From Propionigenium maris DSM 9537 (lineage in GTDB: Bacteria; Fusobacteriota; Fusobacteriia; Fusobacteriales; Fusobacteriaceae): a stretch of 58,821 nt of DNA. The translations under genes were made by a program, and so were the position numbers. The stretch covers positions 1-58,821 of the forward strand of contig NZ_BSDY01000001.1 of the NCBI RefSeq assembly GCF_027925155.1, read 5' to 3'. Below the pieces are notes generated by a model, which saw only the letters and a program-made list of their open reading frames with translations, ran no database searches and had not been told where the DNA came from. Of this stretch, positions 4,369 through 21,103 are shown in pieces (position 1 is the first letter of the stretch; each line of letters begins with the position of its first letter).

Positions 4369-5556
4369 CTACTCCTCCATTAAAAATTTCAGGGCAACAT
4401 TTACATGACACTGGGTTCCCAGGATGAGGGCATCCAGGTCGATCTTCATATTTGGATTGTGCATCATGTAGGTACATCCCTTTTCCTCATTTCTGCATCC
4501 CAGCCAGTAGAAGGCACCAGGGGAATCCTGAAGATATCTTCCAAAGTCCTCCCCACCTGTGTTGGCCAGATCTGCCAGGTCCACATTTTCCTCTCCTAAA
4601 AGCGGAAGAAGGGCATCCCTTACAAGAAGTGCCATCCTCTCATCATTTATAGTAGGGAAGTATCCCTCTATCACCTTAAACTCAACCCTTCCCCTGTGGG
4701 CAGAGGCAAGGGATTGGGCCACCTCCTCCATCCTCTTGACTATAAATCTTTTCACCTCATCGTCAAAGGTTCTCAGAGTTCCATTTAGAAAAACCTCATT
4801 GGGGATGATGTTGGAAGCTCCATCTCCTCCCTGGATGGTTCCAAAGGAGAGTACTGCTGTAGAGCGAGGGTCTATCTCTCTGGAGATGATGCTCTGGTAG
4901 GAGGAGATTATATTTGAGGTAAGGACAATGGGATCTACAGCAAGGTAGGGGGCAGCTCCGTGCCCACCCTTTCCGATTACCTTCATTGAAAAGGAGTCGG
5001 TAGAGGCAGTACACTCCCTCCTTGGAATTCCCACACTACCAGTTGGGCTACAGGTATTGAGGTGGAGGCCAAATGCAGCATCTACATCGTCAAGAAGACC
5101 GCTCTCTGCCATAAAGTGAGCTCCCCCTGGGTGGGGTCCCTCCTCAGCAGGCTGAAATACAAACTTTACCCTTCCCTTAATTATTTCCCTGTTTTCAGCA
5201 AGAAACTTTACAGCTCCCAGAAGCATGGCCACATGACCATCGTGTCCACAGGCGTGCATAAAACCATCCCGCTGAGATCTGAAATCTACATCAGTACTCT
5301 CCCTCAGGGGAAGGGCATCCATATCAGCCCTCAAAAGAACTGTTTTACCAGGGGTAGCCCCTGTTATAGAGCAGATAATTCCAGTGGTATTGTTTACCCC
5401 TGTGTGAAGCTCATCCACCCCATAGCTTTTTAGTTGTTTTTCAATAAATTCAGCAGTTTTATACTCCTGAAATCCCAGTTCAGGGATGGTATGGAGAAAC
5501 TTGTAGTTATCTACAACTTCCTCCTCAAGAAATGAAAGTTCCGATACCTTAATCAT
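4369..5556 (-). CDS. M20 family amidohydrolase (N-acyl-amino-acid/hippurate hydrolase type)
   Basis: 395 residues from ATG 5556 behind AAAGGAGGA. M20D features are HTIPELGFQEYKTAEF near the N-terminus, RADMDALP, the metal-binding MHACGHDGHVAMLLGA and FQPAEEGPHPGGAHFM, and a central dimerisation domain. The cytosolic dinuclear metallo-enzyme hydrolyses N-acyl or N-benzoyl amino acids, releasing free amino acids. The exact substrate cannot be told from sequence. The gene stands alone between terminators. Confidence 0.9.
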   Translation of the reverse strand: MIKVSELSFLEEEVVDNYKFLHTIPELGFQEYKTAEFIEKQLKSYGVDELHTGVNNTTGIICSITGATPGKTVLLRADMDALPLRESTDVDFRSQRDGFMHACGHDGHVAMLLGAVKFLAENREIIKGRVKFVFQPAEEGPHPGGAHFMAESGLLDDVDAAFGLHLNTCSPTGSVGIPRRECTASTDSFSMKVIGKGGHGAAPYLAVDPIVLTSNIISSYQSIISREIDPRSTAVLSFGTIQGGDGASNIIPNEVFLNGTLRTFDDEVKRFIVKRMEEVAQSLASAHRGRVEFKVIEGYFPTINDERMALLVRDALLPLLGEENVDLADLANTGGEDFGRYLQDSPGAFYWLGCRNEEKGCTYMMHNPNMKIDLDALILGTQCHVNVALKFLMEE

Positions 5557-5902
5557 CTTTTCCTCCTTTAAAGTTGATGGTTTATCAATCTTTTCTTTAA
5601 ATTCTTGGAGACTACTATTAAGGTGGATATTACCTAAAAAATATGGGGTTGTAAAGGAGGGGAGGAAAGATATTAACTGCTATGAGATAAGTAACGGGAT
5701 AGAGCATGTTAAAGAGAGAGTGATCTGGGGAAGGTTAGAATTTAAATTTTGGTATTTAGAGATGAGCTCTCCGGCGGTTATAAAAAGTATGTTTATACCT
5801 CTTAAGCTATGGAGTATTCCAAAATAAGCCTGGGAGAGTAGGATGGAATTCATTGTAAAAAAGGAGATAGGATTTCTTATAGTGGTACCAGCGAATCATT
5901 AA
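5557..5902. other. Intergenic region, no gene seen
   Basis: About 350 bp upstream of the amidohydrolase and downstream of a small membrane-peptide gene. It is AT-rich with stops in all frames. No convincing RNA structure was seen. It presumably contains the amidohydrolase promoter. Confidence 0.5.
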
Positions 5903-6043
5903 CTAGGGAAGTTTTTCTATATCGTAGATACACTCATACTTCTTGTTAACCTTTTTACAGAACCTTTTCATATAGCTATAGCAACAGTAGGTTTCATATA
6001 CTATAAAGATAAACACTGCAAGGATCAGAATTTTTTTCACCAT
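5903..6043 (-). CDS. Small single-pass membrane protein, 46 aa
   Basis: An ORF with a strong GGGGAGGC ribosome site placed correctly before ATG 6043. The product starts MVKKILILAVFIFIVYETYC, a single transmembrane helix with positive N-terminus. A short basic/acidic tail with four cysteines follows and ends DIEKLP. It is unrecognised. It lies between the amidohydrolase and the EAL gene in the same orientation as both. Support is the ribosome site and hydrophobic pattern only. Confidence 0.55.
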   Translation of the reverse strand: MVKKILILAVFIFIVYETYCCYSYMKRFCKKVNKKYECIYDIEKLP

Positions 6044-6160
6044 ATTAGCCTCCCCAATAAAAAGGAAATAACTCTTAACCACTTTTATAAAGGTTCACTT
6101 TTTTTATTCTTAAAATAAATGCTTTTCAATATAAAATTAATACACTTTCACTTATTTTTC

Positions 6161-13540: not shown

Positions 13541-13668
13541 GCATATATATTAAAAAAAGTTTATATAAAATTCATATATCTGTGTACTGTTTTATAGGCG
13601 GTCGAGGCGGATTTTTTAAACATTTTTTAGAGGGTTATAAGTAAAGTGTCAAATGACAAGGAGGAAAT

Positions 13669-14907
13669 ATGAAAGGTTTATTTAGCAAGTGGAATCAGAT
13701 GAGTCTGGTTAAGAGAATTATCATCGGTTTAACAATGGGTATCATACTAGCACTGACAGTTCCAGATATGGCAAAGCCAGTATCTATCTTTGGATCGTTA
13801 TTTGTAGGGGCACTAAAGTCGGTAGCACCGATTCTAGTATTCTTCCTAGTAATGTCAGCTGTATCTCAGCATAAGAGCGGACAGAAGACAAATATGAAAT
13901 CTGTTATTACTCTTTATCTTATTGGTACATTCGCAGCTGGACTTGTGGCAGTTTTAGGAAGCTTCATGTTCCCAGTAACTATTAAACTAGGTGCAGGAGC
14001 AGGTGGAAGTGTTACACCTCCAGGTGGAGTTGTAGAGGTATTAAAGGCACTACTTCTAAATGTTGTAGACAATCCTATTCATGCGCTAGCTAATGCAAAC
14101 TATATCGGTATTCTTTCTTGGGCACTGCTTCTTGGAATCGCTCTAAAGAATGCACCTGCATCGACTAAGACAATGGTTTCTAACTTCTCAGATGCACTAT
14201 CTCAGGTTGTTAGATGGGTTATCAGCTTAGCACCACTAGGAATCATGGGACTAGTATTTGCAACTATCTCTGAAAATGGTATTGGGTCAATGGTAGACTA
14301 TGGACGTCTTTTAGCACTGCTTCTTGGATGTATGTTCTTCATGGCACTTGTTGTAAACCCACTTATCACATTTGTTATGATTCGTCAGAACCCTTACCCA
14401 CTAGTATTTAAGTGTCTTAAGCAGAGTGGAATTACAGCATTCTTCACAAGAAGTTCTGCTGCAAACATCCCTGTAAACATGGAGCTATGTGAGGAGCTAG
14501 GACTAGAGAAGGACGTATACTCTGTATCGATCCCTCTAGGAGCAACTATCAACATGGCTGGAGCGGCAATTACAATCTCAGTATTAACTCTTGCTGCTGT
14601 ACACACACTAGGAATCAATGTAGACATCGGAACGGCACTAATCCTAAGTATCCTATCAGCTGTAAGTGCTTGTGGAGCATCTGGTGTAGCTGGTGGATCG
14701 TTACTTCTTATCCCTCTAGCTTGTAGCCTGTTTGGAATTCCAAATGAAGTGGCAATGCAGGTAGTAGCTGTTGGATTCGTAATCGGAGTTATCCAAGATT
14801 CAGTGGAAACTGGTCTAAACTCATCAACAGACGCACTGTTCACAGCTGTAGCTGAGATGGCAGAGTGGAGAAAGCAAGGTAAAGCAATCGTTATCAAGAG
14901 TGCATAG
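13669..14907 (+). CDS. sstT: Serine/threonine:Na+ symporter SstT
   Basis: 412 residues from ATG 13669 behind AAGGAGGAA. It is a DAACS-fold carrier with a SstT-like sequence throughout: [19 protein letters not shown], the re-entrant-loop serine motif [14 protein letters not shown] and [15 protein letters not shown]. It imports serine/threonine with Na+. Codon choice is biased (CTA/CTT leucines, ATC), like the leucine dehydrogenase gene, which suggests high expression. It has a strong promoter and its own terminator. Confidence 0.94.
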
Positions 14908-15270: not shown

Positions 15271-15372
15271 TTTTTAGGGAGTGGTGTAATTAAATAGAGG
15301 ACCTATGGAGATTTTGGAGTTTCCTGATTCTCATAGTAATCATGAAAGGTTGCAATAATCAAAGTTTGGAAT

Positions 15373-15416
15373 AAATATAAATAACAGTTGATATAAACAA
15401 AAATTTATATTAATAT
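15373..15416 (+). promoter_or_regulatory. Promoter and likely ArsR operator of the Sec operon
   Basis: TTGATA (15388-15393), 17 nt, TAATAT (15411-15416). The inverted repeat TATAAAT (15376-15382) / ATTTATA (15403-15409) brackets the -35 box and overlaps the spacer, the placement expected for an autoregulating ArsR repressor. Confidence 0.6.
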
Positions 15417-15439: not shown

Positions 15440-15724
15440 ATGACAGATTACAGGCTGCTGAATAAAACCTTTAAGGTGCTGGCTGACGTCAACCGGCTTA
15501 AGATTATCGAAGCTCTGACCATGGATTGTAGGAGTGTCAATGAGATTGCAATGAAGGCCGGTATCTCCCAGCCCCTTGCATCCCATCACCTGAAAACTCT
15601 CAGGGAGGCGGGGATTGCCCGTTGCGAGAAACGTGGAACCTTTAACTACTACTGACTGGCTGATAAGATGATCTGGAAGATCATAGAGATGGCTAAAGAA
15701 TTTACTTCTGAAAGTACCGAGTAG
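15440..15724 (+). CDS. ArsR-family repressor with in-frame TGA, predicted selenoprotein
   Basis: ATG 15440 behind GAAGGAGGTGG. The winged-helix ArsR domain is clear: LADVNRLKIIEALTMDCRS, then ISQPLASHHLKTLREAGI. After GTFNYY a TGA (15653-15655) occurs in frame. Translation continues LADKMIWKIIEMAKEFTSES and ends at TAG 15722-15724, giving 94 residues, the usual length. The resumed sequence is the expected C-terminal dimerisation helix, and a GG-loop hairpin starts 12 nt after the TGA, so Sec insertion is the best reading. Other possible metalloid ligands are Cys in TMDCRS and IARCEKRG. It probably senses As(III) or a related metalloid and controls the next gene. A pseudogene or release at TGA is the alternative. 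Confidence 0.8.
15656..15690 (+). promoter_or_regulatory. SECIS-like hairpin in arsR-like gene
   Basis: Seven-base-pair stem ATGATCT / AGATCAT (15668-15684) with apical triloop GGA, 19 nt after the TGA. Bacterial SECIS elements sit at this distance and carry G residues in the apical loop. Confidence 0.72.
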
Positions 15725-15849
15725 GAAAAGTAAGGATGATTATGGGATCAGGTTTATTTTTTATGAGGGAAATACTGGAAAAATATAATACCCGATCTTC
15801 AGGGAGAAGGTTGATTGAAAAATAAATTTTAAAATAAAGGGAGGTAGAT

Positions 15850-17181
15850 ATGGAAACACTTTTTACAGCAGATGACAAGAACAGGATAAAAAGGGATATC
15901 GAGAGCAAGTATCAAAAAGTTGCTGCTACCCCAAAGGGACAGTTTAAGTACCCAACAGGGAGGGAAGCCCTCGAAAGGCTGGGATATGATTCAGATATTC
16001 TCAGATCCCTTCCAGATGAAGTTGCAGATTCCTATTGTGGTACTGGAAATCCCTTTTCCCTGGGAAGGATAGAAGGGGGAGAGAGGATCCTTGATTTTGG
16101 ATGCGGAGCAGGGATAGACACTATCTTTGCTGCAAAAATGACTGGAGATAGAGGGAGGGTCATAGGTATTGACATTGTTCCAGAGATGCTTGATAAAGCC
16201 AAGAAAAACAGGGATGCCCTGGGGCTTACCAATGTGGAGTTTGCAGTATCTAAGGGGGATACCCTGGAGTTTTCAGAGGGATACTTTGATACAATTATAT
16301 CCAACAGTGTAATAAACCTTGTTCCTGAAAAGGAGGTTATTCTCAAGGAGTTTTACAGGTGCCTTAAGCCTGGGGGGAAGCTGCTCCTGGTAGACCAGAT
16401 ATTTACAGGGGAGCAGATCAAGGAACACGCTGCTAGAGTAAAAAGCTGGTTCCAATGAGAGGGGGGAGCTGTACCAGAAAAGGTTTTTCTGGAGATGTTA
16501 GGTAATGAAGGTTTTTCCCACTTAAGGGTAGGAGAGAAAACAGGGTTCAACAGTTCCCCCAGAACTGTGGGAACCACAATCAGCGGAAGGAAACCAATGG
16601 CTTCAGAGTGTTGTAAGTCGGAGGGTTTGGAAATTAAAGGTGAAGCTGCTCCTGAAAGTAAAAAGGAATTTAAAGTGGAAACGGTTTTGGAGGAAGCCTA
16701 TGAATTAGGCTGTGAAGAGGTTAAAATTATAGATCCCCAAAGTATAGCTGTGGGAAACTGGGTTCAGTGGAAGTGCAGGTATGGCTGTGCACTGTATGAT
16801 AAGGATGGATGCCATCCTCCTTATGCCCCAAGTGCTGAAGAGACCAAAAAGATCCTCAAGGAATATTCAAAGGCTATTCTCATGAAGGGATTTAACGGAT
16901 CAAAGCTTTCTGAAATAGCCATAGATCTGGAGGGATTCGCATATGAGCTGGGATACTATAAAGCTTTTGCTTTAATTGCACTGCCTGTAACACCTGGCAG
17001 CACCTGATGCGGAGATGAGGGGGCTCAGGCTGAGTCCGCAACAAACCCTAAGATCAGGCCTATGCTGGAGGCGTGTGGAATCGATGTATTTAAAACGGTG
17101 AGAGATAACGGGTTGGAATTAAATACAACCAAAGGCGAAGACGGCAGGTGGTCCTTCTATACAATACTACTAGTAGAGTAA
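15850..17181 (+). CDS. ArsM-like SAM methyltransferase fused to DUF2284 domain; two in-frame TGA (Sec) codons
   Basis: One frame runs from ATG 15850 (GGGAGG upstream) to TAA 17179-17181, 443 residues, interrupted only by TGA at 16456-16458 and 17005-17007. Residues 1-250 match As(III) S-adenosylmethionine methyltransferases: SYCGTGNPFSLG, ILDFGCGAGIDTIFAA, GIDIVPEML and NSVINLVPEKE. The first TGA is in SWFQ-U-EGGAVPEKVFL, where ArsM has its catalytic arsenic-binding cysteine. A SECC hinge leads to DUF2284 (KCRYGCALYDKDGCHPPYAP). The second TGA (PGST-U-CGDE) falls in that family's metal-binding cysteine cluster, before RPMLEACGIDVFKTV. Each TGA has a SECIS-like hairpin. Likely role: metalloid methylation or detoxification. 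Substrate is inferred. Confidence 0.85.
16474..16492 (+). promoter_or_regulatory. SECIS-like hairpin 1 of the methyltransferase gene
   Basis: Eight-base-pair stem CCAGAAAA / TTTTCTGG with apical triloop GGT. The loop begins 24 nt after TGA 16456-16458. Confidence 0.75.
17008..17040 (+). promoter_or_regulatory. SECIS-like hairpin 2 of the methyltransferase gene
   Basis: Outer stem TGCGGA / TCCGCA directly after TGA 17005-17007, and inner stem CTCA / TGAG with apical triloop GGC. The loop begins 21 nt after the TGA. Confidence 0.72.
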
Positions 17182-17286: not shown

Positions 17287-17328
17287 GGAAAAGGGTGCTA
17301 TCTTAACTGGATAGACCCTTTTTTTTCT
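17287..17328 (+). terminator. Terminator of the Sec operon
   Basis: AAAAGGGT..CTATC / GATAG.ACCCTTTT stem followed by TTTTCTTTTT. It closes the arsR-like/methyltransferase transcription unit. The remaining 17182-17473 stretch has no gene. Confidence 0.85.
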
Positions 17329-19778: not shown

Positions 19779-20183
19779 ATGTTAGTAAAATTGTATTTAG
19801 AAAGAATTAATCAAGAAATGATCAATAAACATAAAGCAAACGAAATAATTGAGATGATTGATAAAGCAATAATTGAAAAAAAAGACTATGATCCAGATTG
19901 GGGGGGGAATTTATGGGAAAAAGAGTGCTGCATACTAAATTTTGATAAGAAGAATCCCAATATATGTGATTTGCAGAAGATTGGCGAATTCATCACAATG
20001 AGAAGAGAAAAATTTGGTGCTTTAGTTTGGGTCAGAAAAACTAACAAAGTTTATCAAATAGATGATCAAGCTTTTATGGTGCTTAATAATCTTGATCATG
20101 GCGTATCTATAAATCAGGCGGCTAAATCAGCTGATGTTCCAGTAGAGGATATTAAATCATTAATAGTAGAACTAATTAAATAA
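19779..20183 (+). CDS. PqqD-like RiPP-recognition (RRE) protein
   Basis: 134 residues behind AAAAAGGAGGAAG. The C-terminal half (FGALVWVRKTNKVYQIDDQA, FMVLNNLDHGVSINQAAKSA, VEDIKSLIVEL) has the layout of the PqqD/RRE domain that binds RiPP leader peptides: a three-stranded beta sheet, a DxxA-like turn and three helices. The first 65 residues are unfamiliar. The stop is 20 nt before the radical-SAM gene, so the two form an operon. Family call is by pattern only. Confidence 0.65.
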   Translation: MLVKLYLERINQEMINKHKANEIIEMIDKAIIEKKDYDPDWGGNLWEKECCILNFDKKNPNICDLQKIGEFITMRREKFGALVWVRKTNKVYQIDDQAFMVLNNLDHGVSINQAAKSADVPVEDIKSLIVELIK

Positions 20184-20203
20184 GCACTGGAGGTTTAAAT
20201 ATA

Positions 20204-21103
20204 ATGAGTAATAGAGCAGGCTATCCACTATACGCAGCTATTAATATCTCTACAAGGTGTAATTTGGACTGTAAATACTGCTATATGCAGCCAAGAAGTG
20301 AACTAGATATGAATTTGAAAGATTTTAAGAAAGTTATGGATGATCTATATGAGAATTCTCTTTTCTACGTTCAGATATCGGGAGGAGAACCATTTATACA
20401 TCCTGAATTTATTGAAATAGTTGAATATGCAAGCAGTAAGATAAAGGACATTTCTATTCTAACAAACGGAACATTAGTTCTAGAAGAGCATTTGGAATTC
20501 TTGAGGGATGTAACCAAGAGAATCCCTCTAAAAATACAAGTGTCAATAGATTCACTGTATTCAGAAGTTAATCAGAGAACAAGAAATGTAAAATCTGAAG
20601 TGATTCTTGAAAATATTAAAAAATTATCTAAAACAGGAGTAATCCTTGCAGCAGGCATGGTTGTAACAAAGCACAATATCAATACATTAATTGAATCAAT
20701 CCTTAATTTAAAAGAATACATTAAATTTTTTCATATTATGTGTATACAAAACACGGAGTATGATTCGAGATTAGAAAAAATGTTAAAGCCAGACATTAAT
20801 GAATTAGAAAGCTTATGGAATGAATTAGATATAATACAAAAACAATATGATTTAAAAATATCAAAACCTAGAGATTTAGAGTTATCAAATTATAAAGGCT
20901 GTGCCTATGGCGCCCCATGTGCTGCTGCTTTTTCTTATGTAGTAATCGATCCAGATTTAAATGTAAGGCCATGTGATAAGTTGAACAGCATCATTTTAGG
21001 AAATATGAAAAAAAATAACCTAAAAACCATTTGGAACAGTGATATAACAAATAAATTTTTAAATAATGAGACCCCCTTATGCATTCACAAAAGAGATGGG
21101 TAG
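20204..21103 (+). CDS. Radical SAM/SPASM-type enzyme
   Basis: 299 residues. CNLDCKYCYMQ is the CxxxCxxC cluster that ligates the SAM-cleaving 4Fe-4S. ISGGEPF and ILTNGTLV are further radical-SAM motifs. The C-terminus has GCAYGAPC, VRPCDKL and PLCIHKRDG, the start of a SPASM auxiliary-cluster region. It ends early, lacking the usual final cysteines, so it is a short (Twitch-like) or truncated SPASM. With the preceding RRE protein it probably modifies a ribosomal peptide. No clear precursor is seen. Confidence 0.8.
   Translation: MSNRAGYPLYAAINISTRCNLDCKYCYMQPRSELDMNLKDFKKVMDDLYENSLFYVQISGGEPFIHPEFIEIVEYASSKIKDISILTNGTLVLEEHLEFLRDVTKRIPLKIQVSIDSLYSEVNQRTRNVKSEVILENIKKLSKTGVILAAGMVVTKHNINTLIESILNLKEYIKFFHIMCIQNTEYDSRLEKMLKPDINELESLWNELDIIQKQYDLKISKPRDLELSNYKGCAYGAPCAAAFSYVVIDPDLNVRPCDKLNSIILGNMKKNNLKTIWNSDITNKFLNNETPLCIHKRDG

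Follow-up and report, generated by a model that had tools for sequence, protein, structure and literature searches.

Can a transcriptional repressor, and not only the enzyme encoded beside it, be a selenoprotein? The question is raised by two adjacent genes of the bacterium Propionigenium maris DSM 9537, arsR, for a predicted ArsR/SmtB repressor, and a gene for an ArsM-DUF2284 enzyme, which carry three in-frame TGA codons on the forward strand, one in arsR and two in the enzyme gene. They lie in the first 58,821 nucleotides (nt) of contig NZ_BSDY01000001.1, the stretch of DNA that we analysed and call the window; the genome (4.10 Mb in 60 contigs) is 100% complete with 7.64% contamination. The three TGAs are probable selenocysteine (Sec) codons. 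The reading that we favour, with moderate confidence, is that the repressor, referred to here as Sec-ArsR, would repress its own promoter and release it upon meeting a soft metalloid or electrophile at Cys30/Sec72, switching on the ArsM-DUF2284 gene. Its basis in sequence consists of the TGA codon in four loci, the SECIS-like hairpin that follows it (SECIS, Sec insertion sequence), the Cys found in 12 relatives, the linked Cys30, an operator-like motif and the Sec machinery, from which we infer Sec insertion, repression, the pairing of Cys30 with Sec72, the ligand and co-transcription.

In-frame TGA codons, hairpins and Sec machinery

As an earlier sequence-only reading of this DNA had described, each TGA has homology to the same protein family on both of its sides, and the two frames end at normal stops, TAG for arsR and TAA for the enzyme gene (Table 1). 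The GGN-loop hairpins that it had noted were also confirmed: all three TGAs are followed by a perfect stem of 7-8 bp with a 3-nt GGN loop, at 19, 23 and 20 nt, respectively. The published bacterial SECIS model, as given in the available part of a 2026 review (PMC13188914), has a loop of 3-9 nt, a stem of 4-16, a G in loop positions 1-2, a distance of 16-37 nt and an energy of -7.5 kcal/mol or lower. The stem, loop and spacing of the three hairpins lie within these limits, and the arsR hairpin, at -11.1 kcal/mol, lies within all of them, energy included. On both strands of the window, a stem of at least 7 pairs with a GG loop (loop of 3-6 nt, at a distance of 14-32 nt) follows 8 of the 1958 TGA triplets, our three included. 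The narrower geometry, a 3-nt GG(A/G) loop at exactly 19 nt with at least 6 pairs, follows two, one of them the TGA of arsR.

The Sec machinery, for which the evidence covers the window's genome, was found there as well: selA (593.9 bits, cut-off 267.9), selB (358.3, cut-off 242.25), selD (374.3, cut-off 125) and yedF (213.7, cut-off 110), together with two tRNA-Sec genes that also exceed the cut-off. All of them lie on contig C7.

The two tRNA-Sec genes (G000:C7:46259-46348 and 75537-75626) are nearly identical and 29 kb apart, and neither adjoins the yedF-selB-selA-selD cluster at the start of that contig. The selD gene (L068, about 5021-6060, minus strand) has an in-frame TGA of its own (GGUAGK), followed by a hairpin with a 3-nt GGA loop.

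Column 72 in the relatives of Sec-ArsR

Read through its TGA, the arsR product belongs to the ArsR/SmtB family: HTH_5 (PF01022) scores 44.7 bits over a cut-off of 22, HTH_metalloreg of NCBIfam 75.2 over 55, and the structure model has the ArsR fold. No NCBIfam selenoprotein model fits it. Its only Cys or Sec residues are 30, 62 and 72.

Relatives were taken from a protein search (n = 35) and a profile search (3850 among 7995 candidates scored, the best 120 listed), and 129 listed relatives were aligned with the proteins of the window, Helicovermis profundi and a further genome, G517. After two fragments ending earlier and one protein with a diverged tail had been dropped, 126 relatives could be scored at column 72. 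The database entry ends at the residue just before this column in 76 of them, some of these stubs being truncated forms of the loci that we read as DNA or near copies (P0001, P0014, P0037, P0039); 12 have Cys, 9 have Trp and 29 have other residues. Ordinary ArsR relatives carry residues such as Ser, Glu, Arg or Lys in this position. The stubs have about 71 residues in databases, the length to which gene finders cut these proteins, and we suggest that the family has been overlooked for this reason.

Database annotation ends at the TGA, including in the NCBI entries of Wukongibacter baidiensis and H. profundi, as would be expected if the codon were an ordinary stop, the working protein a 71-residue ArsR without alpha-5, and the frame beyond it a product of chance. 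We regard this as very improbable: the 22 residues past the TGA form alpha-5 of the ArsR fold in the structure model and match full-length relatives, 12 relatives carry Cys in this position, the hairpin and its 19-nt offset are kept in four loci, and the Sec machinery is present. A chance stop or a pseudogene was rejected, as 76 of the 126 scored relatives are cut at one column and Cys recurs there.

The nine relatives listed with Trp at column 72 could instead indicate that TGA is read as tryptophan in these genes, which we find hardly credible. The four loci examined as DNA have TGA with a SECIS-like hairpin, and Trp also appears at the catalogued Sec203 column in 5 of the 34 aligned ArsM relatives (P0130, P0131, P0132, P0133, P0135). 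Five of the 36 open reading frames (ORFs) of at least 200 amino acids in the window (translation table 11) end in TGA, one being the ArsM fragment itself. A TGA = Trp code was rejected. Because Trp stands at the Sec203 column too (a comparison of proteins only), the Trp entries probably reflect another genetic code applied by the gene caller.

Cys30 is present in 75 of the 76 stubs, in all 12 Cys relatives, in 6 of the 9 Trp relatives and in none of the 29 others. When a tree was built from residues 3-71, with column 30 omitted, the Cys label needed 7 changes, at least 3 of them on branches with good support. This suggests that Cys and stop replaced each other more than once, in a short tree with 72 of its 124 inner branches open.

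In the structure model (predicted local distance difference test score, 91.4), residue 30 is placed just ahead of strand 31-32, and residue 72 within strand 68-73, at the base of helix alpha-5 (76-91). Strand 1 pairs with strand 3 in winged-helix proteins, and Cys30 and Sec72 would stand side by side according to this model. The CxC of the alpha-3 metal site is absent, with Ser32-Val33-Asn34 at the CVC columns of P0027-P0035. The ligands of the alpha-5 site, which we take to be D84, H86, H97 and H100 in CzrA, are not matched either: counting from the aligned S81 of CzrA and Sec72, their places are occupied by D75, M77, F88 and E91, with no His. Since the CxC and His ligands are absent and ordinary relatives have no Cys at column 72, Sec72 is not a stand-in for a classical metal Cys. 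The proposal of the sequence-only reading that Sec takes the place of metal-binding Cys throughout the operon is thus sustained for Sec203 of the enzyme, which stands at a conserved ArsM Cys, and not for the repressor.

Sec-ArsR at other loci

Four loci were read as DNA: the window, H. profundi (G436), G517 and G1213. All four have TGA at codon 72, a frame that ends in TAA or TAG 16-25 residues further on, and a 3-nt GG(A/G) loop exactly 19 nt from the TGA; the 7 stem pairs of the hairpin are kept in each of them, with one compensatory change.

Among 98 genomes of the phylum, Fusobacteriota, the only TGA-bearing ArsR match is that of the window, and five weaker matches in other genomes contain TAA or TAG. 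The three further TGA loci were found in Clostridia and beyond. The yield was one locus in 391 genomes, two in 393 (one new), one in 7 and one in 41 (both known), and two in 398 (one new), in samples that overlap and of which the sets of 391, 393 and 398 were drawn evenly from larger groups. In the 398-genome set, column 72 of the ten weaker matches is occupied by Ser, Ala or Arg, with TGA absent; two further stop-free matches in the 393-genome set have Glu or Ser there. No ArsR relative with at least 60% identity was found on plasmids, and the two relatives on viral contigs are distant (33% and 32%).

Operator and proposed mechanism

An operator motif, TTGATATAAA-N6-TTTATRTTA, precedes the genes of the window, Helicovermis, G517 and G1213 with 0, 0, 1 and 1 mismatches, respectively, and none of 1000 Markov shuffles per upstream stretch (at most 650 nt) equalled the real match. 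In Helicovermis it precedes the gene of a SHOCT protein, itself ahead of arsR. Weaker operator copies, phased by 16 bp and with 3-5 mismatches, are found in three of the four loci (window, Helicovermis and G517). The sequence-only reading had proposed a promoter with an inverted repeat, and the repeat does overlap a -35/-10 pair (Table 1); promoter-like sites as such occur in the region at chance level (6 found vs 5.9 expected).

Another operator-like site of the window (13547-13568) has 2 mismatches to a shorter motif and lies about 100 bp upstream of sstT, a serine/threonine transporter gene (13669-14907). Sec-ArsR might act on this site too.

In the mechanism that we propose, a dimer of the repressor would sit on the inverted repeat and shut its own promoter. 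The proposed Cys30/Sec72 pair, and not the classical metal sites, would then trap a soft metalloid or electrophile, the dimer would leave the operator, and the ArsM-DUF2284 enzyme would be made. The enzyme may methylate the sensed compound or one of its products; Sec203 would act as a ligand, replacing the conserved Cys, and Sec386 lies in the predicted metal-binding domain (DUF2284).

Which compound would be sensed is addressed by the neighbours of the other loci. In Helicovermis (L059), arsR is preceded by the gene of a SHOCT protein and followed by genes for a Met-rich 86-residue protein, a CGGC protein and a transporter of the TauE/SafE type; in G517, the neighbours are a methyltransferase and a SHOCT protein. 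That the ligand is arsenic can only be guessed, because two of the three other loci differ in their neighbours and the contig of the third ends. The G517 methyltransferase and the CGGC and TauE/SafE proteins of Helicovermis fit general thiophilic detoxification better than arsenic alone.

The same pair of residues could also serve as a thiol/selenol redox switch, with metalloids not being the ligand: Cys30 and Sec72 would form a selenenylsulfide upon oxidation or upon exposure to polysulfide or selenide, in principle like SqrR/BigR. This is possible, and we rate it well below the reading that we favour. The ArsM-type partner in the window and the other methyltransferase in G517 fit methylation of metalloids or chalcogens, and the structural matches are closer to CzrA and CadC.

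The position of the codon could have a further consequence. Alpha-5 is a dimer helix of ArsR proteins, and a stop at TGA72 would remove the whole of it (76-91 in the model). A ribosome stopping at the UGA would leave a repressor without this helix, and repression could then depend on the supply of selenium as well. Taken on its own, this would make the protein a selenium gauge, in which low selenium yields the 71-residue fragment and hence derepression, and the selenol has no sensing chemistry. We consider such a gauge unlikely: relatives with Cys at column 72 recur with Cys30 kept, which fits chemistry better, and the window enzyme needs two Sec residues, so derepression under selenium starvation would be wasteful.

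Several points weigh against release of Sec-ArsR by a metalloid or electrophile as outlined above. Some concern the codon and its hairpin: covariation among the four hairpins does not stand out from the shuffle control (121 of 500), the hairpins of G517 (-6.7 kcal/mol) and G1213 (-7.0 kcal/mol) fall short of the -7.5 of the SECIS model as quoted in the review, and two of the three window hairpins are not stabler than their own shuffles when folded free-standing (z of -2.75 for that of arsR, and of -0.41 and +0.39 for the other two). The minimum-energy fold of the third hairpin (17021..17037) differs from the SECIS-like one. Others concern the sensor and its target. The Cys30 link follows one clade, for which reason it is not independent evidence row by row, and three of the nine Trp rows are without Cys30. 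The classical metal ligands are absent, hence the sensed compound is only proposed. The operator motif was derived from the same four loci and is hence partly circular. Lastly, the ArsM-DUF2284 gene is found at the window locus alone among the four (the G1213 contig ends too early to show it), its product has Ser153 at one of the cysteine columns described below, and the 125-nt gap that separates it from arsR (15725-15849) makes co-transcription no more than likely.

A bolder form of the proposal, which we put forward tentatively, is that these proteins make up a hidden family of Sec transcription factors, with Cys30/Sec72 as a selenol-thiol sensor and the dimer helix past the UGA, so that toxicant and selenium supply would be read together.

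The ArsM-DUF2284 enzyme

The two-Sec ArsM-DUF2284 enzyme is not new, its family being already catalogued. The window protein matches the NCBIfam model NF041536 (ArsM_DUF2284_UU) over its full length with 723.8 bits (cut-off 575), with the TGAs at residues 203 and 386, and in the selenoprotein table of the 2026 review, as far as available, ArsM_DUF2284_UU is credited to Haft and Tolstoy 2025 (PMC13188914). The NF041536 cut-off is passed in the window's genome only, among the 98 genomes of the phylum; three other genomes (G042, G055, G059) carry an unfused and shorter ArsM, which shares the first TGA and its GGT hairpin with the window enzyme. A scan of genome contigs with the ArsM-DUF2284 protein gave three loci, each matching the methyltransferase domain only. 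The NF041536 scan of 393 genomes of Helicovermis's order gave 0 matches at E 1e-60 and implies no absence, because the control was likewise silent.

When aligned with the solved arsenic methyltransferase 4kw7, Sec203 corresponds to Cys224, Ser153 to Cys174 and Thr65 to Cys72, with Cys63 two residues before the last. We take Cys72, Cys174 and Cys224 of 4kw7 to be its arsenic-binding cysteines. As the equivalent of Cys174 is Ser153, the alignment suggests that arsenite methylation by the window enzyme is less certain than the family name implies. The arsenic-type detoxification of the sequence-only reading keeps its ArsM-like enzyme, and is weakened by Ser153 and by the different neighbours of the other Sec-ArsR loci.

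In Ilyobacter polytropus, the annotated methyltransferase ILYOP_RS13130 (L052 5968-6543) ends at a TGA with a GGT-loop hairpin and is probably a Sec-ArsM cut short by annotation.

Gene layout and neighbourhood

The features of the locus are compiled in Table 1. The sequence-only reading had joined the two genes into one operon by their tight spacing and a terminator. The spacing is not tight, and with a gap of this size a single operon is likely only. A hairpin followed by a T-run is plausible as the terminator, and the terminator scan did not report it.

Table 1. Predicted features of the Sec-ArsR and ArsM-DUF2284 locus, in window coordinates. Loops are given in square brackets; aa, amino acids.
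Feature	Position	Strand	Description and evidence
Second operator-like copy, weaker, 16 bp ahead of the predicted operator	15372..15396	+	At -68; 4 mismatches to motif
Predicted operator, inverted repeat TTGATATAAA-N6-TTTATATTAA	15388..15413	+	10-nt arms, 90% complementary; motif ahead of four Sec-ArsR loci
Promoter-like -35 TTGATA, 17 nt, -10 TAATAT, inside operator	15388..15416	+	Consensus scan
Sec-ArsR gene, predicted ArsR/SmtB repressor with Sec72 and Cys30	15440..15724	+	94 aa, ends in TAG; PF01022, relatives, structure model
Predicted Sec codon TGA (Sec72)	15653..15655	+	TGA in 4/4 DNA loci; Cys in 12/126 relatives
SECIS-like hairpin of arsR, ATGATCT[GGA]AGATCAT	15668..15684	+	19 nt after TGA; 7/7 pairs kept in 4/4 loci
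ArsM-DUF2284 double selenoprotein gene, Sec203 and Sec386	15850..17181	+	443 aa, ends in TAA; NF041536
Predicted Sec codon TGA (Sec203) at conserved ArsM cysteine	16456..16458	+	Aligned with Cys224 of 4kw7
SECIS-like hairpin CCAGAAAA[GGT]TTTTCTGG	16474..16492	+	23 nt after TGA; same geometry in three Fusobacteriota ArsM relatives
Predicted Sec codon TGA (Sec386), DUF2284 domain	17005..17007	+	Reading frame and NF041536 match
SECIS-like hairpin GGGCTCA[GGC]TGAGTCC	17021..17037	+	20 nt after TGA; rival fold competes
Probable intrinsic terminator	17289..17322	+	8-nt perfect arms, then T-run

A scan of 10 neighbouring ORFs revealed no recognisable arsenic gene; 5 of these ORFs had no match at E 1e-8. 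With this result, and with the differing neighbours in Helicovermis and G517, an arsenic operon in general was rejected. The Rfam scan gave a single match, sub-threshold and outside the genes. Further along the window (19779-21103), an ORF of 134 amino acids with no NCBIfam match is followed by a radical SAM protein, AlbA-like at 115 bits (cut-off 850).

Comparison with known systems

Most known bacterial selenoproteins are redox enzymes, and some others are transporters or handle metals. If true, a Sec-ArsR family, with its Sec in a constant position next to a constant Cys, would extend selenocysteine to DNA-binding regulation and make of dozens of database stubs a protein family that can be tested; with one operator, one selenol and one small protein, Sec-ArsR also offers a simple in vitro system. 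The operon had been thought to be of an undescribed form, which does not hold for its catalogued enzyme; the Sec-ArsR regulator appears to be the new part of the locus. Neither NCBIfam nor the available text of the literature searched (including PMC13188914, PMC9312934 and PMC12013277) contains a Sec-containing ArsR, and Haft and Tolstoy 2025 may possibly mention one. In the available main text of the 2026 review, the terms "ArsR", "repressor" and "transcription factor" have 0 occurrences, and a single regulator is listed in the visible part of its table, a "putative regulatory protein, FmdB family" (PMC13188914).

The window enzyme shows no difference from the NF041536 family, for which neither the family line nor the available part of the review mentions a pairing with Sec-ArsR. 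The best-scoring named equivalog for the window ArsR is the ArsR/SmtB-type TsoR (NF045707), with 69.3 bits against a cut-off of 115, and the window protein is not a member of it. Going by its name, TsoR is presumably linked to the Tso selenoproteins. The thiol-based repressors SqrR and BigR use positions other than 30, 62 and 72, the only ones at which the window ArsR has Cys or Sec. Finally, in comparison with CadC, CzrA and SmtB, the window ArsR lacks the CxC site of alpha-3 and the His site of alpha-5, and has Cys30 and Sec72 instead.
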